Assembly (NCBI RefSeq): GCF_030848565.1
Contig: NZ_JAVDDV010000004.1
Coordinates: 62,001-126,000 of the forward strand
Reading direction: 5' to 3'
Length of the DNA: 64,000 nt
Source: Natronolimnohabitans sp. A-GB9
GTDB taxonomy: Archaea > Halobacteriota > Halobacteria > Halobacteriales > Natrialbaceae
Positions 27,120-46,745 of this stretch are shown here, in pieces. The first letter of the stretch is position 1. Every line of letters begins with the position of its first letter. The translations under genes and the position numbers were made by a program. The notes beneath the pieces are model-generated. The model saw only the letters and a program-made list of their open reading frames with translations, did no database searches and was not told the DNA's origin.

Positions 27120-27203
27120 ATGCGGTCTGCTGTCGTCACGTCCCGCCGGTCGCCGACCCCGCCCTGGCGGTCGACGGGAACTCGGTACAGCAGTCCGTCT
27201 CAG
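27120..27203. repeat. Palindromic element B2 (GTCTCAG end)
   Basis: The left part GCGGTCTGCTGTCGTCACG and right part ACAGCAGTCCGTCTCAG are inverted. The interior CGCCGGTCGCCGACC...GGCGGTCGACGGG pairs too. The right end contains the TCA that is the tryptophanase stop (TGA) on the minus strand. Closest relative in the window: B4 at 50517. Confidence 0.8.
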
Positions 27204-28546
27204 GACGACAGCGGTTCGAGCGACGCCGTAAAGTGGCGCAGCTCCGGCATCGACGGATCGGAGACGACCTCGAGACCGTCGATCGACTCGGGGTTCTCGA
27301 GGACGGTCGCGGCGGTCTCGGCGACGTGTTCGAAGTGCTCGGCGTGGTACGTTCGACGGGGAACCGCGAGACGAACGAGTTCCGGCCGGTCGGTGTCGGG
27401 AAAGGCGAAGCTCCCGAGTTCGACCCCGCGGACGCCACCCTCGCGGTAGAGTTCACAGACCAGCGCCTGGCCGGGGAACTCCGCGGGCTCGAGGTGGGGG
27501 AGTGCGGCCCCCGCGTCGATGTAGACGGCGTGGCCGCCCGGCGGCGTATAGACCGGAACGCCGGCGTCGGAAAGCAGCGTGGCGAACTTGCGGACCTCCT
27601 CGAGGCGATCGGTGACGTACGCTTCCGTGACGGCCTCGCGGAGGCCGACGGCCATCGCGGCGACGTCGCGGCCGGCCATCCCGCCGTAGGTGGGAAACCC
27701 TTCATAGAGGATCGCTCGCTGCTTGCATCGCTCGAAGAGGTCGTCGTCGTCGGTCGTGACGAAGCCGCCGGCGTTGACCAACCCATCTTTTTTCCCGCTC
27801 ATGACGACGGCGTCGGCGTAGCCGAGTTGCTCGCGGGCGATCTCGGCGATCTCGTATCCCTCGAACTCTCCCTCGCGGCGGCGAACGAAGCCGGCGTTCT
27901 CGGCGAACCGGCAGGCGTCGATCACGAACGTCGCGTCGATCTCGTCGGCGAACTCCCGAACGCGGCGCGTGTTTTCGACGCTGACCGGCTGGCCGGCCGC
28001 GGAGTTGTTCGTGATCGTCTGGATCACGAGCGGCACGCGCTCGGCGCCGACGTCGTCGACGACCGCGCGGGCACGCTCGAGCGAGACGTTCCCCTTGAAC
28101 GGCCCGTCGGCCGTCGGATCGCGCGCACCCTCGACCGGACAGTCGACCGGCTCGGCGCCCTGGTTCGCGACGTGGGCACGGGTCGTATCGAAGTGCGTGT
28201 TGTTGGGAACGACGTCGCCCTCGGAGAGGAGCGCGCCGTAGAGGACGTTCTCCGCGCCACGACCCTGGTGGGTCGGAACGACTCGAGAGAACCCCATTAC
28301 CTCCCGGACCGCCGACTCGAGTCGCTCGAAGCTCCGCGAGCCGGCGTAGGACTCGTCGCCGCGCATCAACGCAGCCCACTGGGCGTCGCTCATCGCACCG
28401 GTCCCGCTGTCGGTCAACAGATCGATAAAGACGTCCTCGGACGCGAGCTCGAAGACGTTGTATCCGGCCTCCGCGAGCGCCCGCTCGCGGCGCTCTCGGG
28501 AGGGTAACTCGATTCGCTCGACGACCTTGGACTTGTAGGCGACCAT
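27200..28546 (-). CDS. tnaA: Tryptophanase (beta-eliminating lyase)
   Basis: A 448-residue PLP enzyme of the tryptophanase/tyrosine phenol-lyase family, which splits L-tryptophan to indole, pyruvate and ammonia. The PLP lysine is in VVMSGKKDGLVNAGGF near residue 260. Family segments FIDLLTDSGTGAMSDAQWAAL, YAGSRSFERLE, PTHQGRGAENVL and ITNNSAAGQPVS are intact. Tyrosine phenol-lyase cannot be excluded, but haloarchaeal members are taken as tryptophanases. No Trp permease gene is adjacent. A 13-base dyad lies upstream. Confidence 0.9.
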   Translation of the reverse strand: MVAYKSKVVERIELPSRERRERALAEAGYNVFELASEDVFIDLLTDSGTGAMSDAQWAALMRGDESYAGSRSFERLESAVREVMGFSRVVPTHQGRGAENVLYGALLSEGDVVPNNTHFDTTRAHVANQGAEPVDCPVEGARDPTADGPFKGNVSLERARAVVDDVGAERVPLVIQTITNNSAAGQPVSVENTRRVREFADEIDATFVIDACRFAENAGFVRRREGEFEGYEIAEIAREQLGYADAVVMSGKKDGLVNAGGFVTTDDDDLFERCKQRAILYEGFPTYGGMAGRDVAAMAVGLREAVTEAYVTDRLEEVRKFATLLSDAGVPVYTPPGGHAVYIDAGAALPHLEPAEFPGQALVCELYREGGVRGVELGSFAFPDTDRPELVRLAVPRRTYHAEHFEHVAETAATVLENPESIDGLEVVSDPSMPELRHFTASLEPLSS

Positions 28547-30605: not shown

Positions 30606-30723
30606 ATACTGTCGGATCACGCATCGATCGCACGCGACGGGTGATACTGCCGGACAGAACGATTGTGAGAATTCGCCGCTTCTATCCGGCGAATTCTCTT
30701 CATTGACTTCTGTCCGGTAGTAT
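30606..30723. repeat. Palindromic element A3 (ATACTG ends, compound)
   Basis: Two ATACTG-type left ends (30606 and 30644) and one right end CTGTCCGGTAGTAT (30710-30723) are present, as if a copy had inserted into or recombined with another. Inside the inner copy is a perfect 12-base inverted repeat GAGAATTCGCCG/CGGCGAATTCTC (30667-30698). The inner copy resembles A5 in the origin. Confidence 0.75.
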
Positions 30724-30894
30724 GAAGACTCGTTCGTTCGTCGTGACCGACGAGCGGATCGGCTGCCCCGGAGACACAAATATTATGATCTGGGTATCTA
30801 GTAATAGAATACTAGCACGAACGTATCGTGAACACACGGCAAACGTGAGCCGTCACCGGACGTCAAATCGACGCCGATCATCGTACTCGAGGGT

Positions 30895-31377
30895 ATGTCA
30901 AATCAGTATATCACTGCCGAAGAACACCTCCCGGATACCGAGGAGACGGAAACGGTGTTGCAGGTACGCGACGCCGAGACGAAAGAGATCTTCCACTCAC
31001 GGGCGCGTATCGCGAAAGATCCCACACAGCTCGAGCAGCCGAAGTCGCTCTCGGTCGTCAAGGGACCCCACGAGACCACACAAGAGCAGTGGTACATCGA
31101 GTTCGTCGACGAGACGACGACCACCGAGGAGCGCCTCGAGCAGCTGCTCGAGGAGCAGGCCGACCGATCGAACGTCATCAACACGCGATCGAGCGATCTG
31201 AACGTGTTGCTCCGGTATCTCGTCGAGACCGGCCAGTACGAGTCGACGGCCGACGCGACACGAGAGCTGCTGTTCGAACAGCTCGCCGAGGAACACCCAT
31301 CGCTGCTCGAGACCTACGTGGATCTCAAGACTGAGTACGAGTCCGATCCGCTCCAAGCGGTCCTCGAGGACGGATAG
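30895..31377 (+). CDS. Small acidic protein with RHH-like C-terminus, coupled to UbiD
   Basis: A 160-residue acidic protein I do not recognise. The C-terminal 60 residues (LLRYLVETGQYESTADATRE then LLFEQLAEEHPSLLETYVDL) look like the helix pair of haloarchaeal ribbon-helix-helix proteins. The N-terminal half is a beta-rich region (VLQVRDAETKEIFHSRARI, WYIEFVDETTTTEERL). Its stop codon is followed directly by the UbiD ATG, with zero spacing, so it is co-translated. It may regulate the operon or be an accessory subunit of the decarboxylase; the sequence cannot decide. Confidence 0.65.
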   Translation: MSNQYITAEEHLPDTEETETVLQVRDAETKEIFHSRARIAKDPTQLEQPKSLSVVKGPHETTQEQWYIEFVDETTTTEERLEQLLEEQADRSNVINTRSSDLNVLLRYLVETGQYESTADATRELLFEQLAEEHPSLLETYVDLKTEYESDPLQAVLEDG

Positions 31378-32886
31378 ATGTCGGTCGACTCGTTTCGGAC
31401 GTTTCTGGACGTCCTCGAGCGTGGCGACGCGATCACGCGGATCACCGACGACGTCTCCTGGGACCTCGAGGCGAGTGCGATCACGATGCTGGCAAACGAG
31501 ACGGACGACCGGATCCCCGTTTTCGAGTCGGTCCGGAACCAGCGATCGGACACGAACGCTCGGCTCGTCGGCGACCCCTATCGCGGTCCCCAGCAGTGTC
31601 CCTGGAAGTGGTTCGGGCACGCGTTCGACCTCCCGGTCGACTCCGGGCCGGCCTACTACGAGGGGATGATCGATCGGCTCCACGAACCGCTCGAGCCACG
31701 GATGGTCTCTGCGGCCGCGGCTCCCTGCAAGGAGGTCGTCCGAACGGGTGACGACGCGAGTCTGCTCGAGTTCCCCTGGCCGTATATCCATCAGGGCGAC
31801 GGCGGTCGGTACGCGACGCTTGCGACGCTGGTCGCGCCGGATCCCAACAGCGAGTGGGGAAGCTGGTCGCGCCACCGAACGATGATTCACGATTCTTCGC
31901 AGGCGAGTGTGCTCTTGCTGGCGGGCGAACAGGTACCCAACCGCTACTACTTCGAGTACGAACGCGACGACGAACCGATGCCCGTCGCACTGACGATCGG
32001 CGCCGGCCCGGCCGTCGAGTCCACCGCGGAGATGTGGATCCCCGTCGGGCGAAGCGAGGTCTCCTTCGCCGGTGGACTCCGCGGGTCGCCGGTCGAACTC
32101 GTCGAGTGTGAGACGAACGACCTCGCCGTTCCGGCCACCGCCGAGATCGTCATCGAGGGACGAGTGATGCCGAACGAGCGCCTCGACGAGGGACCGTTCG
32201 GCGACTACTTCGGGTACATGAACGGTCCTCGCCGATCGATGCCGGTCCTCGAGGTCGACGCGATCACTCATCGCCGCGAGCCGTACGTCCCCTTCTGTGT
32301 CGAGGGAAGCGGCGTCGGGTACGGTGAGAACTCCTCGAGTACGCTTGCGATCGCCGCAGGTGGGCCGGACGCCACGCTCGGGCTGCGAATCGCCGGCTTC
32401 GACGTCGAACTGGCCGCCCCGTGGCCGTTTACCTCCCGGACGGTCTGGGTCATCGCGGTCGATCGAGCCTACCCCGGCGCCCTCCACGAACTCGCCAACT
32501 TCATCTTCACGACCTGGGGGATGCTCCACATCGACTTCTTCGTCTTCGTCGACAGCGACGTCAATCCGCTGTCGCCTCGTGCGGTGATCGAAGCGATCGC
32601 CCTCCATGCCGATCCCGCGACGGACTTCCACCAGTTCGGCGTCGAACGTATGCCGAAAGTACCGCTCAACATCTACCAGACGCCCGACGAGAAGGGAAGC
32701 GCGACGGTCGGCACCTCACGGACGAAGACGTCGAAAGCCTACATCGACGCCTGTGCCGACGGCGATCGGCCGGCACAGGGGATCGGTGATCGCGACGCAC
32801 GCGAGCGGGCCCGCGAACTGCTCGTCGAGGCGGGCGTTCCCGAAACGGCGTTCGAACCAGCGCACACGACCGGGGCGGAACGATGA
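31378..32886 (+). CDS. ubiD: UbiD-family (de)carboxylase, prenylated-FMN type
   Basis: A 502-residue UbiD enzyme. The catalytic segment EIVIEGRVMPNERLDEGPFGDYFGY near residue 258 has both acidic residues of the R-E-E/D centre, and GSWSRHRTMIHDSSQASV near 160 matches the prFMN/metal-binding region. The C-terminal domain (ERMPKVPLNIYQ) is also typical. These enzymes decarboxylate or carboxylate aromatic or alpha,beta-unsaturated acids and need prFMN from UbiX; no ubiX gene is in this window. It overlaps the next gene by four bases. The substrate is unknown. Confidence 0.88.
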   Translation: MSVDSFRTFLDVLERGDAITRITDDVSWDLEASAITMLANETDDRIPVFESVRNQRSDTNARLVGDPYRGPQQCPWKWFGHAFDLPVDSGPAYYEGMIDRLHEPLEPRMVSAAAAPCKEVVRTGDDASLLEFPWPYIHQGDGGRYATLATLVAPDPNSEWGSWSRHRTMIHDSSQASVLLLAGEQVPNRYYFEYERDDEPMPVALTIGAGPAVESTAEMWIPVGRSEVSFAGGLRGSPVELVECETNDLAVPATAEIVIEGRVMPNERLDEGPFGDYFGYMNGPRRSMPVLEVDAITHRREPYVPFCVEGSGVGYGENSSSTLAIAAGGPDATLGLRIAGFDVELAAPWPFTSRTVWVIAVDRAYPGALHELANFIFTTWGMLHIDFFVFVDSDVNPLSPRAVIEAIALHADPATDFHQFGVERMPKVPLNIYQTPDEKGSATVGTSRTKTSKAYIDACADGDRPAQGIGDRDARERARELLVEAGVPETAFEPAHTTGAER

Positions 32887-34271
32887 CGGCGTTTCGAAGT
32901 CACCTCGAGTTTCTCCGGAAGACCGACGACTGTTGCTGGCTCGAACGACCCGACTCGCCGTCGCCCCAGGTTATCGCCAGCGAGGCGCTTCGGGCGGACG
33001 GGCCGGTGTTGCGGTGTACGACGAACGACGCTCGTGTCGACCTCGTAGCGGGGGTCTACGGCGGCGTCGATGGGTTGAGTCGAGGGAATCGGTTCCCGTG
33101 GAGCCGTCTCGGAATCGGCCTCGGCGTCGACCAGGAACCCGAGTACGTCGACGTCCTCGAGGCGATCACCGACCTCGGCGACCGACTCGACGAACACGAC
33201 GTCACGTACGTCGAACGCGCGGCGACCGCCACCGACCCGAGCGTCCGGGAACTCGGGTTTCCGACGCCGCCGGATGGAACCTGGCCCCGACTAACGCTTG
33301 GGCTCCTTTCGGTCGGGACCGACGACGGCTCCTACTGGACGCCGATCCACGGCACGGTTCTCGATGATAACACGATTCGCGCCCGCGTCCCCGACGCGAT
33401 CACCGATCGGTTCGCCCGCGGTGACGTCGTCAGCGTCGCGCTCGGGGTCCCGGCCGAAGCGCTCACTGCGACGTACCTCCTGACGGTCACAGACCGCCTC
33501 TCGACGCCGATCGAGGAGCGGCGCGTCGGCTCGACGGTGCCGGTGATCCCGACCGGCGGCGGGCTCGTCCCCAGCTCTTCGGAGGTCGTCCTCGAGGCCG
33601 AAATCGCGGACCAACAGCCCGAGACGCGCTCGGAGAAACGGGAGTTCTGGGAACGGATCGTCGACGGCACGACGCTGACGCTTGACGTGACCAGTGTGTT
33701 CACCCGCGACGACGCCGTCGTTCCGTTTACGCCGCTTGACGTTCCACTCGCTGATGACCTCCAGCTCGTCGCGTTGACTCTGGCGGCACAGCTGTACGAT
33801 CGAGCAAACAGCTACTGGGGCATCGCACCGGTCGAGTGGCTTCTGCTTCCGGCGAGCGGACGGCTCGGGGTCTGTGTAGTCTCGACGGAGATGCTGTACG
33901 CCGGCTTCGAGTGGCAGCTCTCGAACTTCCTGTTTTCCTTCTCGAACTGTTATGACACCGTCGTCGTCGTCGACGACGAAGCCAGTCCGCGCGACCTCGG
34001 ACAGGTCCTCGCGGACATCTGGGTCAAGGCCCATCCGTCTCGAGACTGGCTGTTCAGCGAGTCCGACGCTCCCGTCGCCCGGCTGCCGACGTACAGCCGG
34101 GACGGGACCGGGGCCCGACTCTACGTCGACGCAACGTGGGATCCCCGGTGGGACGAGGAGTACATCGCGCCGCGTGTCTCGCTTACCGAGTCGTACCCGC
34201 CTAACCTCCGAGCGGCTATCCGTGGCTCGTGGTCCGAGTTCGGTTTCGACACCGATCCGGAGGAGCTGTAA
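32883..34271 (+). CDS. UbiD paralogue lacking the catalytic motif
   Basis: A 462-residue protein with the UbiD fold: HLEFLRKTDDCCWLER at the start matches the N-terminal domain, GVYGGVDGLSRGNRFPWSRL the next part, and SSEVVLEAEIADQQPETRSE aligns with EIVIEG-x-x-x-P of active enzymes. The following EGPFGD block is missing, and the prFMN-binding region (LGLLSVGTDDGSYWTPIHGT) is altered. It starts four bases inside the ubiD gene (ATGA), so the two are likely made in fixed ratio. A structural subunit of a heteromeric decarboxylase is the simplest reading. Confidence 0.72.
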   Translation: MTAFRSHLEFLRKTDDCCWLERPDSPSPQVIASEALRADGPVLRCTTNDARVDLVAGVYGGVDGLSRGNRFPWSRLGIGLGVDQEPEYVDVLEAITDLGDRLDEHDVTYVERAATATDPSVRELGFPTPPDGTWPRLTLGLLSVGTDDGSYWTPIHGTVLDDNTIRARVPDAITDRFARGDVVSVALGVPAEALTATYLLTVTDRLSTPIEERRVGSTVPVIPTGGGLVPSSSEVVLEAEIADQQPETRSEKREFWERIVDGTTLTLDVTSVFTRDDAVVPFTPLDVPLADDLQLVALTLAAQLYDRANSYWGIAPVEWLLLPASGRLGVCVVSTEMLYAGFEWQLSNFLFSFSNCYDTVVVVDDEASPRDLGQVLADIWVKAHPSRDWLFSESDAPVARLPTYSRDGTGARLYVDATWDPRWDEEYIAPRVSLTESYPPNLRAAIRGSWSEFGFDTDPEEL

Positions 34272-34636: not shown

Positions 34637-36331
<1,695 letters not shown>

Positions 36332-36471: not shown

Positions 36472-37638
36472 ATGAACTTCGAAGACACGCAAGAACGATC
36501 GATGATCCGCCAGACGGCGGCGGAGATTGCCGACCAGTACGGACCCGAACACTGGCGCGAAAAGGAAGAGAACGGCGAGTTCTCCAGTGAGTTCTGGAAC
36601 GAACTCGGCGACGCCGGCTTCCACGGCCTGCTCGTCCCCGAGGAGTACGCCGGTGCCGGAATGGGGATGCAAGAGATGGGACTGGCCATGGAGACGCTCT
36701 GTGCCGAGGGCTGTGGCATGGCCGGCACGTGGTACCTGGTGTTGACCGCCGGGATGGCCGCCGTCGGCATCCGTGAACACGGCACCGACGACCAGAAGGA
36801 ACGCTACCTACCCGACATCGCGACCGGCGAGCGGAACTTCTCGATCGGGATCACCGAGCCCGAGGCGGGAACGAACACGTTGAACGTCGCCACTCGAGCC
36901 GAGAAAGACGGCGACGAGTACGTCTTAAACGGCAAGAAGGCATGGATCACGTTCGCCGACCGAGCCGACAACATGATCCTCGTCACGCGGACGACCCCCC
37001 GCGAGGAGGTCGACCGCGGCACCGACGGCATCAGCCTGTTCGTCGTCGACATGGACGATCCAAACATCGACGTCTCGCCGATCCCCAAACACGCGATGAA
37101 CTACTCGAAGTCCTGTGAGGTCTTCTTAGAGGACGTCCGCGTGCCCGAGGAGAACCTGCTGGGCGAGGTCGACGACGGCTGGTGGGTGCTCGTCGACATG
37201 CTCAACCCCGAACGGATCGGCTTCGCGGCTGCCGGTACTGGGATCGGCAAACTCGCCTCGGAGACGGCCATCGAGTACGCGAACGATCGCGAGATCTTCG
37301 GGGCGCCGATCGGCACCCACCAGGCGGTTTCGTTCCCCATCACGGAGGCTTACGCGAAGATGGAGACGGCCACGCTCATGCGCGAAAAGGCCGCGTGGCT
37401 CTACGACCAGGACGAGGAGTGTGGCTACGAGACCAACGTCGCGAAAGCGACGGCCGTTGAGGCCGGCATCGAGGCGGTCAAACACTCGATGCAGGCCTTC
37501 GGTGGCTGGGGCTACGCCAAGGAGTACGACGTCGAACGCTGGTGGCGTGAGATCAACCTCACCCGGCTCGCTCCGGTCAGCCAGCAGATGGCGTACAACC
37601 ACATCGGCCAACAGCTTGGCTTCCCCAAATCCTACTGA
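36472..37638 (+). CDS. Acyl-CoA dehydrogenase
   Basis: A 388-residue FAD flavoenzyme of the acyl-CoA dehydrogenase family. FAD- and substrate-binding segments are present ([14 protein letters not shown] near residue 122, [14 protein letters not shown] near 157) and the C-terminal helical domain has [20 protein letters not shown] near 343. It introduces the alpha,beta double bond and passes electrons to ETF. In the operon it sits between the ligase and the biotin carboxylase, which fits isovaleryl- or another branched acyl-CoA dehydrogenase. The start ATG is 140 bases after the ligase stop. Confidence 0.92.
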
Positions 37639-37640
37639 CC

Positions 37641-39440
37641 ATGTTCGAAAAACTACTAGTCGCAAACCGCGGCGAAATCGCCGTTCGCGTCATGCAAGCC
37701 TGTGAGGAGCTCGGTATCGAGACGGTCGCCGTCTACAGCGACGCCGACCGAAACGCTGGCCACGTCGCCTACGCCGACGAAGCGTACAACATCGGTCCCG
37801 CGCCCGCGAGTCAGTCCTACCTCGACGGAGACGCCATCATCGAGGTCGCCGACCGAGCAGGGGCCGACGCGATCCACCCCGGCTACGGCTTCCTCGCGGA
37901 GAACGCCGAGTTCGCAAGCGACGTCGAAGACGCCGAGGGGATCACCTGGGTCGGGCCAAGCAGCGACGCCATGACGGCACTCGGCGAGAAGACGAACGCG
38001 CGTCGCATCATGCAGGCGGCCGACGTACCCGTCGTTCCAGGGACGACCGAACCCGTCGAGTCGGCCGAGGAAGTGCGAGAACTCGGCGCCGAGTTTGGCT
38101 ACCCAGTCGCAATCAAGGCCGAAGGCGGCGGTGGCGGCCGCGGGATGAAGATCGTTCGCGGTGACGACGAGGCCGAAGACGCCCTAGAGAGTGCCAAACG
38201 CGAGGGTGAAGCGTACTTCGACAACGACTCGGTCTACGTCGAGAAGTTCCTCGAGAGTCCGAAACACGTCGAGGTACAGATCCTCGCGGACGAACACGGC
38301 ACGGCGCTCCATCTCGGTGAACGGGACTGTTCGCTCCAGCGTCGCCACCAGAAGGTCATCGAGGAGGCACCGAGCCCGGCACTGGACGCCGACCTTCGGG
38401 AGGCGATCGGTGACGCGGCCCGTCGGGGCGTTCGGGAAGCCGGCTACACGAACGCCGGCACCGTCGAATTCCTCGTGGAAAACGAGGAGTTCTACTTCAT
38501 GGAGGTCAACACCCGGATCCAGGTCGAACACACCGTCAGCGAGGAGGTGACGGGAATCGACATCGTCCGCGAGCAGCTCCGCATCGCGGCCGGCGAAAAA
38601 CTCCCCTACAGCCAGGACGACGTCGAGATCGACGGCCACGCGATGGAGTTCCGGATCAACGCCGAGAACCCGGCCGACGGGTTCGCGCCGACGCCGGGGA
38701 CGCTCACCACGTACGATCCGCCGAGTGGCCTCGGCGTCCGGATCGACGACGCGATCTCTCAGGGCGACGAGATCGCCGGCGACTACGACTCGATGATCGC
38801 GAAGCTGATCGTTCGCGCACCGACGCGGGAACGCTGTCTCGAGCGCTCGAATCGAGCACTCGCCCACTTCGACGTCGGCGTCGAGACGACGGTCCCGTTC
38901 CACCGGCTGATGCTCGAAGACGAGACGTTCCGCGCGGGCGAACACACGACGAACTACCTCGACGAGACGGTCAGCGACGACGACCTCGCGGACGCCGTCG
39001 ACCGCTGGAGTACGGCGGTCGACGACGAGGGCGACCCGGCTGGAGACGCCGAGACGAACGACCTCGTCGTCGAAGTCGACGGGCAGCGGTTCGACGTCGC
39101 CGTCACGGGCGGGCTCTCCCAGGTCGCGAGCAGCGACGGCGGAGCCGACGCCGGCGGGGGCACTGCCGGCACGTCGTCGACAGCCTCGAGCACTGGCGGC
39201 GGTGCCGGAACTGGACAGGTCACCGCGGGCGACACGATCACGGCCGAGATGCAGGGCACCGTGCTCTCGGTGAACGTCTCTCCCGGCGACGACGTCGCCG
39301 AAGGCGACGTGGTCTGTGTCCTCGAGGCGATGAAGATGGAAAACGACGTGGTGGCACCGGCGGCCGGGACCGTCGCGGATATCCCCGTGACTGACGGTGA
39401 ATCGGTCGATATGGGCGACCCGCTCGTGGTGCTCGAATAA
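37641..39440 (+). CDS. Acyl-CoA carboxylase, biotin carboxylase plus BCCP subunit
   Basis: A 599-residue fusion. The biotin carboxylase domain (residues 1-445) has the ATP-grasp Gly-rich loop [12 protein letters not shown] near 155 and the catalytic region [16 protein letters not shown] near 285. After a Gly/Ser/Thr linker (about 500-530) comes the biotinyl domain with [11 protein letters not shown] near 560, where the Lys carries biotin. It carboxylates biotin with bicarbonate and ATP. It starts two bases after the dehydrogenase stop and two bases before the carboxyltransferase gene. Confidence 0.94.
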
Positions 39441-39442
39441 CC

Positions 39443-41245
39443 ATGGAAGTGACAGTCAACGACACGACGACGGATCGAGAGGCACAGGCGATCGCGAAGG
39501 CCCTCGCGTCCCACTTCGGGGACGACGTAGAGCTGTACGCCGAGACGGGCGAAGAGCTCCTCGCAAGCGCGTCACCGGAGCGAAACGGAAGTTCCGCCGA
39601 CGAGACCACGACCGGGACGGCCACCGCCACCGGCGATGGCGGTGCCGATACCGCAGCCGACGACCTCGAGCCGACCGAGCGAGAGGAGGCCTTGCTCGAC
39701 GAGATCGAGGACATCCTCGAGGGCGGTCCCGAGAAGTACCGCGAACGCCTCTCCGATCAGGGGAAGCTGTTCGTCCGCGATCGGCTCGACCTCTGGTTCG
39801 GCGAGGACGGCCTGACGTTCGAGGACGGCAAGTTCGCCAACTTCGACGAGTGGCATCCGAGCGGACAGGACGGCGAGGCCGACTCCGGAAACCGACTGCC
39901 TGCCGACGGGCTCATCACCGGCGCCGCCGAGTTCGAAGGCCGTGATATCCACTTCATGGCCAACGACTTCACCGTCAAGGCGGGGTCGATGGCCGAGAAG
40001 GGCGTCGAGAAGTTCCTCCGGATGCAACAGCGTGCGCTGAAGACCGGCCGACCGGTGTTGTATCTGATGGACTCCTCGGGCGGTCGGATCGACCAGCAGA
40101 CCGGCTTCTTCGCCAACCGTGAGGGGATCGGGAAGTACTACTACAATCACTCGATGCTGTCGGGACGGGTCCCACAGATCTGCGTGCTGTACGGTCCCTG
40201 TATCGCGGGTGCGGCGTACACGCCCGTCTTCGCGGACTTTACGATCATGGTCCGGGACATGTCCGCGATGGCCATCGCCTCCCCACGGATGGTCGAGATG
40301 GTCACCGGCGAGGAGATCGACCTCGGGGACCTGGGTGGACCGGACGTCCACGCCCGGCACTCGGGTAGCGCGGACCTGATCGCTGAAGACGAGGAACACG
40401 CCCGCGAACTCGTCGCGAAGCTGCTGAGCTACCTCCCCGACAACAGCGACGAGGAGCCGCCACAAACCGAGGGAGCCGCACCCGAACTGTCGCCCGAGGG
40501 GATCGACTCGATCGTCCCCCAGGAGCCAAACCGCGGCTACGACATGTTCGACGTCATCGACCGGGTCGTCGACGCTGGCTCGACGCTCGAGCTCCGGCCG
40601 GAGTACGGCCCCGAGATCATCACGGCCTTTGCCCGTATCGACGGCCGTCCGGTCGGGATCGTCGCCAACCAGCCTGCCCAGCGAGCCGGGGCGATCTTCC
40701 CCGACGCCGCCGAGAAGGCCGCGGAGTTCATCTGGACCTGTGACGCCTACGACATTCCGCTGTTGTACCTGTGTGACACGCCCGGCTTCATGGCCGGTTC
40801 GCAGGTCGAGAAAGACGGCATCTTAGAGCAGGGCAAGAAGATGATCTACGCGACCTCTTCTGCGACGGTGCCCAAACAGTCCGTGGTCGTCCGCAAGGCC
40901 TACGGCGCCGGCATCTACGCGATGTCCGGGCCGGCCTACGACCCCGAGAGCGTCATTGGACTTCCCAGCGGCGAGATCGCGATCATGGGCCCCGAGGCGG
41001 CGATCAACGCCGTCTACGCGAACAAACTGGCCGCGATCGACGATCCGGACGAACGCGCAAAGCGAGAACAGGAGCTGCGCGAGGAGTACCGGGAGGACAT
41101 CAACGTCCACCGGATGGCAAGCGAGGTCGTCATCGACGAGATCGTGCCGCCGAGCTCGCTCCGGGACGAACTCGAGGCCCGGTTCGAGTTCTACGAGACC
41201 GTCGAGAAGGACCTTCCGGACAAGAAACACGGGACGATCCTCTGA
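39443..41245 (+). CDS. Acyl-CoA carboxylase carboxyltransferase subunit with N-terminal extension
   Basis: A 600-residue carboxyltransferase that moves CO2 from biotin to an acyl-CoA. Two crotonase-like halves are seen, with oxyanion loops SSGGRIDQQ near 212 and GPCIAGAAYTP near 252 in the N-half and CDTPGFMAGSQVE near 443 in the C-half. The REGIGKYYYNHS stretch is closer to methylcrotonyl/geranyl-CoA carboxylases than to propionyl-CoA carboxylase. The first 35 residues (MEVTVNDTTTDREAQAIAKA...) followed by a Gly/Thr linker are extra; they resemble the small epsilon/PccX subunit, which would make this a fusion (inference). Confidence 0.9.
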   Translation: MEVTVNDTTTDREAQAIAKALASHFGDDVELYAETGEELLASASPERNGSSADETTTGTATATGDGGADTAADDLEPTEREEALLDEIEDILEGGPEKYRERLSDQGKLFVRDRLDLWFGEDGLTFEDGKFANFDEWHPSGQDGEADSGNRLPADGLITGAAEFEGRDIHFMANDFTVKAGSMAEKGVEKFLRMQQRALKTGRPVLYLMDSSGGRIDQQTGFFANREGIGKYYYNHSMLSGRVPQICVLYGPCIAGAAYTPVFADFTIMVRDMSAMAIASPRMVEMVTGEEIDLGDLGGPDVHARHSGSADLIAEDEEHARELVAKLLSYLPDNSDEEPPQTEGAAPELSPEGIDSIVPQEPNRGYDMFDVIDRVVDAGSTLELRPEYGPEIITAFARIDGRPVGIVANQPAQRAGAIFPDAAEKAAEFIWTCDAYDIPLLYLCDTPGFMAGSQVEKDGILEQGKKMIYATSSATVPKQSVVVRKAYGAGIYAMSGPAYDPESVIGLPSGEIAIMGPEAAINAVYANKLAAIDDPDERAKREQELREEYREDINVHRMASEVVIDEIVPPSSLRDELEARFEFYETVEKDLPDKKHGTIL

Positions 41246-41281
41246 ACACCCACCGACAGACATCTCACAGGTGACACACAT

Positions 41282-41764
41282 ATGACCGGACTGTACTACG
41301 AGGAGTTCGAAGTCGGCGAGACGATCGAACACGAGCGGCGTCGGACGATCAGCGAGAGTGACAACCAGCAGTTCTGCGATATGACGATGAACCAGCAGCC
41401 GCTGCATCTCGACGCTGCGTTCGCCGAGGAGACGGCGTTCGGAGAACGGCTGGTCAACGGGCTCTACACGATGAGCCTCGCAGTCGGCATTACCATTCCG
41501 GAGACCACCGACGGAACCATCGTCGCCAACCTCTCGTACGACAACGTCGAGCACCCCGAGCCGGTGTTTCACGGCGACACGATCCGGGTGCAGTCGACCG
41601 TCACGGACAAACGGGAGACCAGCGACGGCGAGCGCGGTATCGTCACCATGCACGTCGAGGTCTTCAGGGTCAACGACCGTCCCACTGACGAGGCCGACGA
41701 AACGCTCGTCTGTGAGTTCGACCGAACCGTCCTCTCGCTGCGAGGTGATCGTCCAGACACGTAG
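41282..41764 (+). CDS. MaoC-like enoyl-CoA hydratase
   Basis: A 160-residue hot-dog hydratase. The catalytic Asp/His region is MTMNQQPLHLDAAFAEET near residue 36, followed by GERLVNGLYTMSLAVGI. This form is close to mesaconyl-/methylglutaconyl-CoA type hydratases of the MaoC family. In the operon it follows the carboxylase, so it may hydrate the carboxylated enoyl-CoA, for example 3-methylglutaconyl-CoA to HMG-CoA. That pathway step is an inference from order. Confidence 0.88.
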   Translation: MTGLYYEEFEVGETIEHERRRTISESDNQQFCDMTMNQQPLHLDAAFAEETAFGERLVNGLYTMSLAVGITIPETTDGTIVANLSYDNVEHPEPVFHGDTIRVQSTVTDKRETSDGERGIVTMHVEVFRVNDRPTDEADETLVCEFDRTVLSLRGDRPDT

Positions 41765-41897
41765 ACGGTAACGGGCCGACGACGACAGTTTCGACGGGGT
41801 TCGACCGATCGAACCCCGGCACGGGTGACTGGGGTGAACCGTTATTCGACGACACTGATCGGTGTGGGGATTGCCGTCCTCGACCGATATGCGAGAT

Positions 41898-43250
41898 ATG
41901 AACACACAACTGATGAACGAAAACAATTCACACGTCTCACGGCGGAACTTCCTGAAGGGGTCCGCCGCGGTAACGACAGTCGGATCGCTTGCAGGCTGTG
42001 TCCTCCTCGAGGGGGACTTCGGCACGGAGGAGATCGACGGCATTCCGGACGAACCGTTCCGGATCGTCCAACTCCTCTTCGAGTCCGGCCCGCCGGCGTT
42101 CTACGGCGAGGAAGCGAGAAACGCGAGCGAGATGCTCGTCGAGCAGATCAACGACGACGGCGGCCTCATCGGCGAACGCGAGATCGAGGTCGTCGACCGA
42201 CTCGACGAGGATGCCGGACCGGATTCGCTGATCAGCGACGTCCAGGCGATGGCACAGGAGGGCGAGGTCGACATGATCATGGGTATCGTCTCGAGTGCCC
42301 ACTCGCTTGCGGTGGCACCAGCAGCGGACGACCAACAGTTGCCGTTCCTGGTGACGATGCCCGGAACCTACCAGCTGTTCGAGGAGAACCCGGAGATGGA
42401 CCACGTCGTCCGGACGGCTGGGACGAACGCTGCCGGTGCGGTCGGTGCCGTCCGGATGGTCGAGCAGATGGACGACGTCGAAACGGTGATCACGGTCGAT
42501 CCCGACTACGCCTGGGGACACGACCACCAGGAGATGTTTACGGCCGGCCTCGACGCCGTCGGTGCAGACGTCGAGGTCGTCGAGTCGCGCTACCCGGAGC
42601 TGGGTGAGACCGACTACAGCGCTCACGTCTCCGCGATCGCCGACGAGTCGCCGGACCTCCTGTTCTCGAGTCTGTGGGGCGGAGACATTTCGACGTTCGT
42701 CTCACAGGGCGTCGCCGGTGGGCTGTTCGAAGCGGTTGACGAGGCGCTGTTGATCGGCGACACCGGTGCACCCTTGCTCGACTCTCTCGGCGCCGATATG
42801 CCAGAGAACGTCTGGCTCGGCGGTCGCGGTGGCTACCAACCCAACTACCGGTACGACGAGGACGAAGCCCACCGGGAGTTCGTCGACGAATACTACGAGC
42901 GCTACGACCAGCTCCCGGGGTGGGGTGCCTACCACGAGTGGATGGGTTTCGAGGCGCTCCAGGAGGGCGTCGAACGGGCCGTCCAGATCATCGGCGACTG
43001 GCCGACCGGCGAACAGCTCATGGCGTCGATGAACAACATCGCGTTCGAGGCACCGCACGGCCAGCATACGATGCACGGCCCACAGGCAGTCGCACCGGCC
43101 GTCTTCGGACGTCCGACCGACGACCACGATCTTCCGGTCGATCACCCGCTTCTCGGTGAGTTCGAGTTCATCGAGGCCGCAGAGGTCAACCCGCCGGAGG
43201 GCGTCCTGACGATGGACTGGGTCGACGAAATCGAACCGATGACGGGGTGA
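41898..43250 (+). CDS. livJ: Branched-chain amino acid-type ABC transporter, substrate-binding lipoprotein
   Basis: About 450 residues. The N-terminus has a Tat motif SRRNFLKGSA and a lipobox LAGC, so the mature protein is exported folded and lipid-anchored. The rest is a type I periplasmic-binding (Leu/Ile/Val) fold: EPFRIVQLLFESGP, INDDGGLIGEREIEVV, and a C-terminal lobe. Starts at 41889, 41898 and 41913 are all possible; all keep the signal. First gene of a complete Liv cassette. Ligands of this family include amino acids, urea, amides and short carboxylates; the catabolic neighbours favour a carboxylate. Confidence 0.9.
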   Translation: MNTQLMNENNSHVSRRNFLKGSAAVTTVGSLAGCVLLEGDFGTEEIDGIPDEPFRIVQLLFESGPPAFYGEEARNASEMLVEQINDDGGLIGEREIEVVDRLDEDAGPDSLISDVQAMAQEGEVDMIMGIVSSAHSLAVAPAADDQQLPFLVTMPGTYQLFEENPEMDHVVRTAGTNAAGAVGAVRMVEQMDDVETVITVDPDYAWGHDHQEMFTAGLDAVGADVEVVESRYPELGETDYSAHVSAIADESPDLLFSSLWGGDISTFVSQGVAGGLFEAVDEALLIGDTGAPLLDSLGADMPENVWLGGRGGYQPNYRYDEDEAHREFVDEYYERYDQLPGWGAYHEWMGFEALQEGVERAVQIIGDWPTGEQLMASMNNIAFEAPHGQHTMHGPQAVAPAVFGRPTDDHDLPVDHPLLGEFEFIEAAEVNPPEGVLTMDWVDEIEPMTG

Positions 43251-43256
43251 GAACGG

Positions 43257-44165
43257 ATGCCGATCGAATCCCTCATGGTAAACACGTTCAACGGGCTCTA
43301 CTTCGCAGCCCTGCTGTTTTTCGCATCGGTTGGGCTGACGCTCGTGTTCGGTATCCTCAACCTGCTGAACATGGCTCACGCCGCGTTCTACGGTCTCGGC
43401 GCCTACGTGGCCGTCTGGACGCTGAACAACATGGGCGATATCACGACGTCGACGGTCGTCCTCTTGGCGGTACTCGTCCTCGTGATACCGCTGGTCGTGT
43501 TCGTCCTTTCGGCAGTGTTAGACAAGACGGTCTTCGCCCCGCTGTACGAGATCGAGCCCGTCTATCAGCTGCTGGCGACGTTCGGTGTGATCCTCATGCT
43601 CGACGACGTGATCAAGTTCATCTGGGGTGCGTCCCCGATCACGGTCGACGGCGCCGTCGATCCGTCCCGACAGCTGGGAACGCTCGACCTGCTCGGCATC
43701 TCGGTGTCGGCCTACCGGTCGGTCGTCATCCTGATCGCCATCGCCTGTGCCGTCGGGCTCTATCTCATGTTCGTGAAGACGAAACTCGGGAAGATCTCCC
43801 AGGCGATGTCGGAGGACTACGAGATGGTCCAGATGCTCGGGATCAACGTCAACCGCGTTCGCATCATGATCTTTAGCATCTCGGTCGCCATCGCGGCCCT
43901 CGGCGGCGCGCTGTTCGTCCCCTTCGCGACGGCGACGCCGGCGGTGACCCTCGAGTACGTCCTGCTCTCGTTCGCCGTGATCGTTATCGGCGGTCTCGGG
44001 AGCCTCAAAGGCGTCGTCGTCGCCGCGCTGGTCATCGGTATGGTTCGGAGTTTCGGGATCGCGTACTACCCGGCACTCGAGTTAGCGATCGTCTTCGGGC
44101 TGATGGCAGTGGTCATCATCTTCAAGCCAGAAGGGCTGTTCGGCGACGAGGGGGTGGTCGAATGA
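43257..44165 (+). CDS. livH: LivH-type ABC permease
   Basis: A 302-residue permease with about eight membrane segments of the branched-chain amino acid transporter group. FGILNLLNMAHAAFYGLGAYVAVW near residue 24 and GGLGSLKGVVVAALVIGMVRSFG near 245 are the family signatures. It follows the binding protein by six bases and overlaps livM by four, so it is part of one operon. Confidence 0.92.
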   Translation: MPIESLMVNTFNGLYFAALLFFASVGLTLVFGILNLLNMAHAAFYGLGAYVAVWTLNNMGDITTSTVVLLAVLVLVIPLVVFVLSAVLDKTVFAPLYEIEPVYQLLATFGVILMLDDVIKFIWGASPITVDGAVDPSRQLGTLDLLGISVSAYRSVVILIAIACAVGLYLMFVKTKLGKISQAMSEDYEMVQMLGINVNRVRIMIFSISVAIAALGGALFVPFATATPAVTLEYVLLSFAVIVIGGLGSLKGVVVAALVIGMVRSFGIAYYPALELAIVFGLMAVVIIFKPEGLFGDEGVVE

Positions 44166-45195
44166 GCACCCGCTTGCCGACGTTCGGCGACGTGAAAGCC
44201 GGGGAGATAAAGGGGGTGCTTCTCGACAAGCGCCTGCTCGCGGGCAGCGCCCTGTTCGTCTTCCTCGCGTTGTACCCCGCGTTGACGATGAACGCCTATC
44301 ACACGCGTCTGCTGGCGTGGATCATGTGTTTCGCCATCGCTGCCCTCGGGTTCAACATCGTCCTCGGCTACACGGGGCTGCTGTCGTTCGGCCACGCCGC
44401 GTTCTTCGGGGCCGGGATGTACACCGTCGTGATCGCGATGGAACGGGCCGGGATCACCGATCTCGTCGTCCTGCTGGTACTGGCGATGATCGTCGCCGGC
44501 GTCGTCGGGGCGATCATCGGCGCGCTCTCGGTCAAGACACACGAGATCTACTTCGCGCTGTTGACGCTTGCGCTTGCCCAGCTGCTGTTCGTGCTCGCGA
44601 CCCGGGACGTCGGCGGACTTACCCGCGGGACCGACGGGATCGGGCTCACCCGCCCCGACTTCCTGGGACTCCCCGTCAGCGAAGTGCCGGCCCAGTTCTA
44701 TCTGATGGGCTTTTACTACCACGTGATCCTCGTCTGTCTGACCGCGACGATCCTGTTGCTGTGGGTCGTGTTGCGCTCGCCGTTCGGCCTCACGCTGAAG
44801 ATGATCCGCGAAAACGAGACGCGAGCGGAGATGAGCGGCGTCCCCATCCTCCGGTACCGGCTGTACTCGATGATCCTCTCGGCGATGATCGTCGGACTCG
44901 GCGGCGCGCTCTACGCCGTCGTCGTCGGCCACATCACGCCGGAGTATCTCGACTGGACGATGTCCGGCGAGATCGTCTTCATGGCGTTGCTTGGCGGTAT
45001 CGGCACCTTCCTCGGACCGGTCGTCGGCGCCGGCGGCTTCATCCTGTTGCAGGAACTGGCACTCAGCGTCACCACTTACTGGCACTTCACGATGGGACTC
45101 GTGTTGTTCGTGGTCGTGTTGACGCTGCGAGAGAAGGGTATCTGGGGCGGTGCGAAAGAACTGCTCGAGCGACTCGACGAACGGAGAGACAACTC

Positions 45196-45199
<4 letters not shown>
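44162..45199 (+). CDS. livM: LivM-type ABC permease
   Basis: A 345-residue permease with about nine to ten membrane segments. Signatures: GFNIVLGYTGLLSFGHAAFF near residue 62, RSPFGLTLKMIRENETRAEM near 205 (the loop that contacts the ATPase) and LGGIGTFLGPVVGAG near 278. It overlaps livH and livG by four bases each. Confidence 0.93.
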
Positions 45200-45999
<800 letters not shown>

Positions 46000-46001
46000 C
46001 G

Positions 46002-46745
46002 ATGGGTGGACAACAGCAACACCAGCAGCCGCTTCTCGAGGTCGAAGACGTCACCGTCAGCATCGACAGAGCGACGGTCCTCGAGGAGGTCTCGCTGGCG
46101 GTCCAACCGGGCGAGACCGTCGCGTTGATCGGACGCAACGGAGCGGGGAAGACGACGACCTTCCGGTCGGTGATGGGCCAGACGTCGATTCGAAACGGGA
46201 CGATCCGCGTCGACGGAACCGACCTCACGGATCGTCCGTCACGAGAACGGATCCAACACGGTATCGGCTTCGCACCCGAAGACCGACGGCTGTTTACGAC
46301 CCTCACCGTCGAGGACAACCTACGAATGTCGGCGTGGGGGAAAGGCGACGTCGACGATGACGGATTCGAAGCGCGCCTCGAGCGCGTCCTCGATATCTAT
46401 CCGGAGATGGAGGAGTTCCTCGATCGGCCGGCCGGCCAGTTGAGCGGCGGTCAACAGAAGATGGTTACCGTCGGCCGGGCGCTGACCTCGGATCCCGACA
46501 TCGTGTTGCTCGACGAGCCGTTCGAGGGACTCGCCCCCTCGGTGCGCGAACAGTTCCGCGAGGGTGTCGAACGGATCAAAGACCTCGGAATCTCGATCGT
46601 CGTCGCGGAGTCGAACGTCCGCCACGCTGGAGAGATCGCCGATCACGGATACGTCATCGAGCGTGGCGAGATCGTCACCGACATCGGCCGCGACGAGCCG
46701 ATCGTAGACAACGACGAGATCAAACGGATCTTCGAAGGCGGCTAG
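46002..46745 (+). CDS. livF: LivF-type ABC ATPase
   Basis: A 247-residue ATPase. Walker A GRNGAGKTTT is near residue 45, signature QLSGGQQKMVTVGRAL near 147, and Walker B IVLLDEPFEGLAP near 167. Length and the absence of a long insertion mark it as LivF. It starts two bases after livG and ends one base before the hot-dog gene, so the transporter and the catabolic gene are transcribed together. Confidence 0.93.
   Translation: MGGQQQHQQPLLEVEDVTVSIDRATVLEEVSLAVQPGETVALIGRNGAGKTTTFRSVMGQTSIRNGTIRVDGTDLTDRPSRERIQHGIGFAPEDRRLFTTLTVEDNLRMSAWGKGDVDDDGFEARLERVLDIYPEMEEFLDRPAGQLSGGQQKMVTVGRALTSDPDIVLLDEPFEGLAPSVREQFREGVERIKDLGISIVVAESNVRHAGEIADHGYVIERGEIVTDIGRDEPIVDNDEIKRIFEGG

Follow-up and report, generated by a model that had tools for sequence, protein, structure and literature searches.

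The subject of this analysis is a group of three genes on a 64,000-nucleotide stretch of DNA (hereafter, the window) from the haloarchaeon Natronolimnohabitans sp. A-GB9 (assembly GCF_030848565.1, contig NZ_JAVDDV010000004.1, positions 62,001 to 126,000 of the forward strand). Two of them encode UbiD-type proteins, P0001 (alpha) and P0002 (beta), and are preceded by a gene for a small protein, P0003; the three together are referred to as the trio. Papers are cited below by their PubMed Central (PMC) numbers.

30895..31377, + strand: P0003, small two-domain protein, 160 amino acids
31378..32886, + strand: P0001, UbiD alpha, 502 amino acids, proposed catalytic subunit (R167, E227, E271, D276)
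32883..34271, + strand: P0002, UbiD-like beta, 462 amino acids, proposed non-catalytic partner (UbiD_C over its cut-off, UbiD-like predicted fold, motif lost)

A fixed three-gene operon

P0001 begins on the base right after the stop codon of P0003, and the start of P0002 overlaps the end of P0001 as ATGA, so the translational coupling given in a preliminary description of the locus is borne out by three + strand open reading frames. To see how far this arrangement extends, we surveyed the order in 392 genomes, including that of the window. At E<=0.001, P0002 had matches in 87 genomes and P0001 in 110. Strong orthologues were delimited at E values stronger than 1e-70 for beta and stronger than 1e-150 for alpha; weaker beta matches (6 of the 87 genomes) were left out of the trio count, and weaker alpha matches (29 genomes) were treated as ordinary UbiD. 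Strong alpha and strong beta orthologues occupied an identical set of 81 of the 392 genomes. Alpha lay directly upstream of beta in all 60 representative beta loci, in 51 of them with a gap of exactly -4 (ATGA), and such constancy argues that the coupling is not due to chance. Between the small gene and the alpha gene that follows it, a gap of -4 was measured in 27 of 56 representative loci. All gaps in relatives are approximate, since start codons were set to the nearest methionine.

Among 57 large loci (L062-L098 and L124-L143, in which several genomes are represented twice), alpha and beta were present at every one and the small gene, at E<=1e-15, at 55. The remaining two, L138 and L139, are divergent trios of a single genome; the small gene is decayed in one of them, and none was found in the other, a profile search included. 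This genome could serve as a natural experiment on the need for the small gene. In plasmid records, the small gene and beta matched the same 17 haloarchaeal entries, with two weak bacterial matches besides for beta. Two plasmid records already label the small gene 'ubiD operon protein', and therefore the linkage has been noticed by annotators before. Overall, we conclude that P0003, P0001 and P0002 form a fixed operon across many haloarchaea. The preliminary description had suggested looking for the same trio elsewhere and had named separate occurrence of the two UbiD proteins in relatives as the finding that would speak against it; what we found is recurrence of the trio and a pair that stays together.

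One locus shows alpha in a disrupted state: in Haloarcula sp. JP-L23 (L094:10457-11983), it appears as two separate open frames, unannotated, beside an intact beta, which reflects either real decay or a sequencing error.

Active-site residues and the absence of a detectable UbiX

P0001 matched PF01977 (UbiD) with 220 bits against a cut-off of 23.3 (E 2.4e-65) and also exceeded the cut-offs of UbiD_N and UbiD_C. P0002 exceeded that of UbiD_C (PF20696) only, with 44.8 bits against 24.2 (E 1.6e-11), its UbiD-domain match being weak (0.08). A Foldseek search with the predicted structure of P0002, in which residues 378-432 are poorly modelled, matched HudA (4ip2_C) at E 4.8e-22, with a template modelling (TM) score by query of 0.67 and a root-mean-square deviation (rmsd) of 12.9. 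Together, the UbiD_C and Foldseek matches suggest that beta keeps the UbiD fold, as had been proposed. The motifs read by eye from the sequence also proved correct: P0001 carries EIVIEG at 256 and EGPFGD at 271, while P0002 shows VPSSSEVVLEA and EGPFGD is missing.

Catalytic positions were compared in a MAFFT alignment of alpha (n=58) and beta (n=60) representatives, to which two UbiDs of solved structure and 18 ordinary ones from haloarchaea were added, numbered after A. niger Fdc1; partial alphas (bit score 200-560), such as the split one in L094, were excluded. The catalytic motif of UbiD is given as RXnEX4(E/D) (PMC10176493). In alpha, this motif is kept, because equivalents of R173 and E277 occur in 58 of 58 sequences and Asp stands at E282 in all 58 (R167, E271 and D276 in P0001); the E233-equivalent is likewise invariant. 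In beta, across a stretch that is gap-prone, R is found in 31 of 60 sequences and E277 in 6 (with a gap in 18), while the E233- and E282-equivalents are found in none. Thus, an intact active site in the second UbiD, which the preliminary description regarded as the other result contrary to its view, did not appear; beta has lost the catalytic motif and would be inactive.

The altered region for prenylated flavin mononucleotide (prFMN) that had been ascribed to the second UbiD stands for beta; it is not, however, a property of beta only. On the cofactor side of alpha, the N168-equivalent varies as well (D 31, R 13, S 9, H 3, N 1 and T 1, n=58), whereas N occupies this position in 16 of the 18 ordinary haloarchaeal UbiDs and in the alphas of two genomes from outside the order (G609 and G581, see below). 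At the H191-equivalent, all 58 alphas have Gln. We rejected this residue as a marker of prFMN loss: the stretch is gap-prone, and the outside alphas, from genomes that bear UbiX, have Gln too.

Regarding the enzyme that makes prFMN, the remark that no ubiX lies close by turned out to be an understatement. Genome-wide, the window's genome (99.95% complete) yielded no match to TIGR00421 (UbiX). A family search with PF01977, covering this genome only, returned one protein, P0001, and the single PF02441 protein is CoaBC (340 bits against 219.7), by which we discarded the idea of a UbiX hidden among its other flavoproteins. In the survey, TIGR00421 was over its cut-off in 34 of the 392 genomes (37 at E<=0.001) and in 0 of the 81 trio genomes, while it was found in 28 of the 29 ordinary-UbiD genomes, the single exception being G185, which is 72% complete. 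Six genomes had UbiX and no UbiD found by the P0001 search. The Fisher p for UbiX against the trio is 5e-4 with genomes treated as independent, though they are not. In a family sample of 101 genomes, each of the 31 trio genomes had one PF02441 match, situated in a long open frame like that of CoaBC. Among 14 named control genomes, TIGR00421 was detected in 11 (9 over cut-off) and PF02441 in all; such a search is blind to a prenyltransferase unrelated to UbiX and to a UbiX that has diverged strongly.

Keeping this in mind, one might suppose that the trio encodes a normal prFMN enzyme, supplied by an unrecognised flavin prenyltransferase or by a UbiX too diverged to be recognised. The UbiD family is described as prFMN-dependent (PMC10176493), and the motif of alpha together with its E233-equivalent, kept in 58 of 58 sequences, is what one would expect of such an enzyme. 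Yet no second PF02441 protein was found in the 31 sampled trio genomes, N is retained at the N168-equivalent in 1 of 58 haloarchaeal alphas in contrast to most ordinary UbiDs and both outside alphas, and among 43 neighbour proteins tested, none qualifies as a trio-linked replacement, because the two main contexts share only an enoyl-CoA hydratase at 50% identity. We therefore regard this supposition as unlikely, albeit a serious one.

Another way to read the pair is as two separate enzymes or homomers, merely co-transcribed, with beta serving a function outside UbiD chemistry. Beta does have strongly conserved residues of its own, mostly in the C-terminal half (28 rows), and stands on a long branch (1.38) in our tree. 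A pair that is not found apart in 81 genomes and overlaps by four bases at 51 of 60 loci is hard to reconcile with such independence, as are the reports of UbiD heteromers (PMC7500099, PMC12016498), and we hold this explanation to be rather improbable.

The small protein and the origin of the pair

30895..31119, + strand: N-terminal beta-rich domain of P0003 (about residues 1-75), possibly PpcG-related (model strands 5-70; hhalign)
31168..31344, + strand: C-terminal ribbon-helix-helix (RHH)-like domain of P0003 (about residues 92-150; VIA-align)
30798..30815, no strand: perfect palindrome CTAGTA-N6-TACTAG, candidate operator 79 bp upstream of P0003 (a weak lead)

P0003 is over the cut-off of no Pfam or NCBIfam family; this includes the RHH families of Pfam and the gamma-subunit families of both collections. 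Nor is a match to the small subunits LpdD, BsdD or VdcD listed for it in NCBIfam or Pfam, no direct comparison with LpdD having been made. Its AlphaFold2 model, built from 27 rows, has a mean local confidence (pLDDT) of 79 and a predicted TM score (pTM) of 0.51, with five strands within residues 5-70 and helices within 77-158. In VIA-align, whose own mark is Z 8, residues 74-151 matched SegB with Z 6.5 (rmsd 3.3, 75 aligned), and residues 92-145 matched the RHH of ParD with Z 6.0 (rmsd 4.6, 52 aligned). Foldseek gave 0 of 1008 matches at E<=0.001; SegB took rank 7 (E 0.13), and the top rows, mostly kinases with low TM, were given no weight. Hence, the label 'RHH-like' given earlier to the whole small protein suits its C-terminal half, at moderate Z; the N-terminal half appears to be a separate beta-rich domain.

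In this N-terminal domain, GPHE and W66 are invariant in the 27 rows. Aligned by hhalign with the small proteins of operons outside the order and the Azoarcus gamma subunit PpcG, four together, it reached a probability of 89 (P 2.3e-6), which fell to 25 once PpcG was taken out of the profile. Matches to single sequences were weak (probability 6.9 for PpcG, 1.6 and 30.8 for the others), and shuffled sequences scored as high as the real ones or higher in 2, 3, 15 and 148 of 500 cases. A relation of this domain to the gamma subunit of phenylphosphate carboxylase (Ppc) is suggestive only. In our leading reading, P0003 would be an accessory protein dedicated to the enzyme.

The palindrome upstream of P0003 is the single exact match in the window, with 0.23 matches expected at <=2 mismatches, and its half-site was seen only in a few close relatives. 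An operator shared upstream of the trio was also sought and rejected, the most widespread 8-base word occurring in only 11 of 56 upstream regions. These data bear on the possibility that P0003 is a transcription factor only, an RHH autoregulator and not part of the enzyme. The predicted RHH-like domain and the perfect palindrome would fit such a protein. At the same time, half of P0003 is a separate domain with its invariant GPHE and W66, no 8-base word is more common among the upstream regions than stated above, and the outside operons hold shorter small proteins (frames of 93-129 amino acids), though one of these has a weak match to the DNA-binding family TraM (E 0.081). We consider this possibility doubtful, while giving it a substantial share of our belief.

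Further upstream, the intergenic region at 30644-30723 of the window contains nested inverted repeats (outer arms of 16 nucleotides, 94% complementary; inner arms of 12, 100%), which look like a small mobile element or a terminator.

As for the origin of the pair, a beta profile was searched over 246 genomes of the phylum. Two genomes outside the order, G609 and G581, have adjacent alpha and beta, accompanied by the shorter small proteins mentioned above; the beta of G581 is cut by the contig end. There was no further strong case in the family of G609 (55 genomes) or among 57 genomes from the order of G581, a set almost identical to the former. A Streptomyces UbiD matched by an outside-alpha query had no second UbiD annotated within 7 kb. 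Both G609 and G581 carry UbiX, and therefore the ancestor of the trio may have used prFMN. The outside beta keeps EGP, without the last acid, and haloarchaeal beta has lost the catalytic motif; thus, beta seems to have decayed stepwise. Haloarchaeal alpha, in turn, seems to have relaxed one cofactor-side position, the N168-equivalent. One outside genome also has a HAD-type hydrolase (L154:13367-14107, - strand) close to its alpha and beta. The delta subunit of the Thauera Ppc system is HAD-like.

Our tree of 52 rows (12 of the 58 alphas and 12 of the 60 betas among them) united haloarchaeal and outside alphas with support of 99/97, and haloarchaeal and outside betas with 98/97. PpcA fell beside HudA/Fdc; the partner of PpcB was another outside UbiD, followed by ordinary UbiDs. 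Such a topology indicates that the alpha/beta pairing arose separately from Ppc. It could still be argued that the trio is a haloarchaeal Ppc or a close relative, having the same parts (two UbiD-like chains and a small one) and a weak gamma match. Yet alpha scores 145.9 against the PpcA cut-off of 564.6, beta 21.9 against the PpcB cut-off of 468.95 (NCBIfam), and PpcA and PpcB each belong elsewhere in the tree. We rejected orthology with Ppc on these scores and on the tree, and deem the idea very improbable.

Gene neighbourhoods and the proposed enzyme

Downstream of the trio, the window contains the following genes, several of which belong to what we call context A:

34637..36331, + strand: adenosine monophosphate (AMP)-forming acyl/aryl-coenzyme A (CoA) ligase (context A)
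36472..37638, + strand: acyl-CoA dehydrogenase (context A)
37641..39440, + strand: biotin carboxylase and biotin carrier (context A)
39443..41245, + strand: acyl-CoA carboxyltransferase (context A), closest solved relative the propionyl-CoA carboxylase beta subunit
41246..41761, + strand: MaoC-type hydratase (start codon tentative), shared by 8 of 15 other context-A loci
41862..46742, + strand: branched-chain amino acid type ATP-binding cassette (ABC) transporter (binding protein, two permeases, two ATPases)

The biotin carboxylase, carboxyltransferase and acyl-CoA dehydrogenase of the window, which define context A, accompany the trio in 15 of the 57 loci. Another 40 loci bear a set of aromatic type (acyl-CoA dehydrogenase, enoyl-CoA hydratase and/or metallo-beta-lactamase (MBL) hydrolase), and 36 of these 40 have PaaA/B/C-like genes. 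L128 and L138 have neither set; a CoA ligase and ABC transporter genes, the latter related to those of the window, stand beside the trio instead. Homology suggests aromatic compounds in the second context: a PaaA-like protein scored 140 where the cut-off is 280, and one ligase, with 376, just passed the 375.25 set for the benzoate-CoA ligase family. Of the 43 neighbour proteins mentioned above, the enoyl-CoA hydratase, present in 1 of the 15 context-A loci, was the only one common to both main contexts. Judging from the predicted functions, what the contexts have in common is a CoA-linked degradation of organic acids.

Two neighbours deserve separate comment. At L089:14571-18010 and 35 other loci, a conserved PaaA/PaaD/PaaB/PaaC-like set with a 2Fe-2S protein falls well under the PaaA and PaaC cut-offs where scanned, and may be an epoxidase for another aryl-CoA. 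In the window, 2.3 kb upstream of the trio (27200-28546, - strand), lies a pyridoxal phosphate (PLP) enzyme of the tryptophanase/tyrosine phenol-lyase type; the idea of it as a source of phenol was dropped, since it occurs at L062-L064 only among the 57 loci.

Known systems provide a frame for the trio. Calling a UbiD heteromer with one inactive subunit uncommon, as the preliminary description did, was fair, with the reservation that precedents exist in Ppc (PMC7500099) and naphthalene carboxylase (PMC12016498). Ppc has alpha and beta, both UbiD-like, and gamma, and T. aromatica uses all three for the CO2 step (PMC7500099). The trio resembles the Ppc of Thauera and Azoarcus (PpcA/B/G/D) in having two UbiD-like subunits and a small one from one operon and, as we propose, in aromatic (de)carboxylation into CoA pathways; it differs in the independent origin of its pair by the tree. 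Besides a delta subunit, the Azoarcus operon encodes UbiX and one more UbiD; for the trio, no UbiX was found, and an RHH-like domain sets its small protein apart. Neither a delta (HAD) subunit nor phenylphosphate synthase is annotated near ten plasmid trios, a genome-wide search not having been made.

A further parallel is the phenylphosphoamidate carboxylase of Desulfatiglans anilini, two UbiD-like chains required together and reported as active with Mn, K and FMN, not prFMN (PMC7500099). Unlike alpha and beta, its chains are both of Ppc beta types, 52% identical and encoded in separate clusters; the enzyme has no gamma or delta subunit, and the organism has a ubiX-like gene (PMC7500099). For the naphthalene carboxylase of culture N47, several UbiD-like subunits encoded in a single cluster are likewise proposed, although it is anaerobic, has four UbiD-like genes and has prFMN as its proposed cofactor (PMC12016498). 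HudA/PA0254 and Fdc1, prFMN UbiDs with structures and the nearest solved relatives of alpha by phmmer, share RXnEX4(E/D) with it, while being single gene products used with UbiX and having S or N at the N168 position. By description only, P0003 may be likened to LpdD, a small protein paired with a UbiD as a chaperone that binds prFMNH2, the product of UbiX (PMC10865409). No paper on a haloarchaeal UbiD pair was found, by title and abstract start, in searches of the open-licence PMC literature.

The co-inheritance, coupling, motif states, predicted folds and lack of a detectable UbiX computed here induce us to lean, if only slightly, towards a heteromeric UbiD-type (de)carboxylase that is independent of UbiX, with a catalytic alpha, a dead beta and P0003 as accessory. 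For this enzyme, we infer the physical complex, cofactor, substrate, direction of reaction and DNA binding. Alpha would hold the active site; beta would be its catalytically dead sister copy, acting as a structural or allosteric partner through the well-preserved UbiD_C domain. The N-terminal domain of P0003 probably docks on the enzyme in a gamma-like manner, while the RHH-like domain probably serves autoregulation by binding DNA. The substrate that the complex carboxylates or decarboxylates would be a conjugated unsaturated or an aromatic acid, which the neighbouring genes would handle as CoA thioesters. Since the proposed enzyme would work without UbiX, no prFMN would be made by the known route, and unmodified FMN would be the most likely replacement; the FMN precedent of D. 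anilini makes a UbiX-free enzyme credible, without being a proof.

Several points weigh against this scenario. The main doubt is the intact catalytic motif of alpha, just what a prFMN enzyme should have. The RHH match of P0003 is of moderate Z, and its suggested gamma relation is statistically weak. The small gene is decayed once and was not found once in the two-trio genome, and the ancestor may have used prFMN, as the outside genomes with alpha and beta have UbiX. Moreover, the two gene contexts are very different and do not fix the substrate, and ordinary UbiDs in the trio genomes are not excluded singly, at most three candidates per genome having been scored.

A bolder version of the scenario would see the trio as a prFMN-free haloarchaeal branch of UbiD, with alpha and beta using FMN or another cofactor and the small subunit being both enzyme component and DNA-binding sensor. 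We find it quite unlikely; if true, assembly or substrate load would be read out directly on the operon promoter.

Published descriptions make UbiD enzymes dependent on prFMN from UbiX. The absence of a detectable UbiX across all 81 trio genomes is the point that a UbiD specialist would want tested: a widespread UbiD branch of this kind would mean either a prFMN-free lineage or a second route to prFMN, both directly testable. A separately evolved pair of an intact and a decayed UbiD also helps to ask what a dead subunit is for, and the trio may open the way to aromatic-acid handling in salt-loving archaea.

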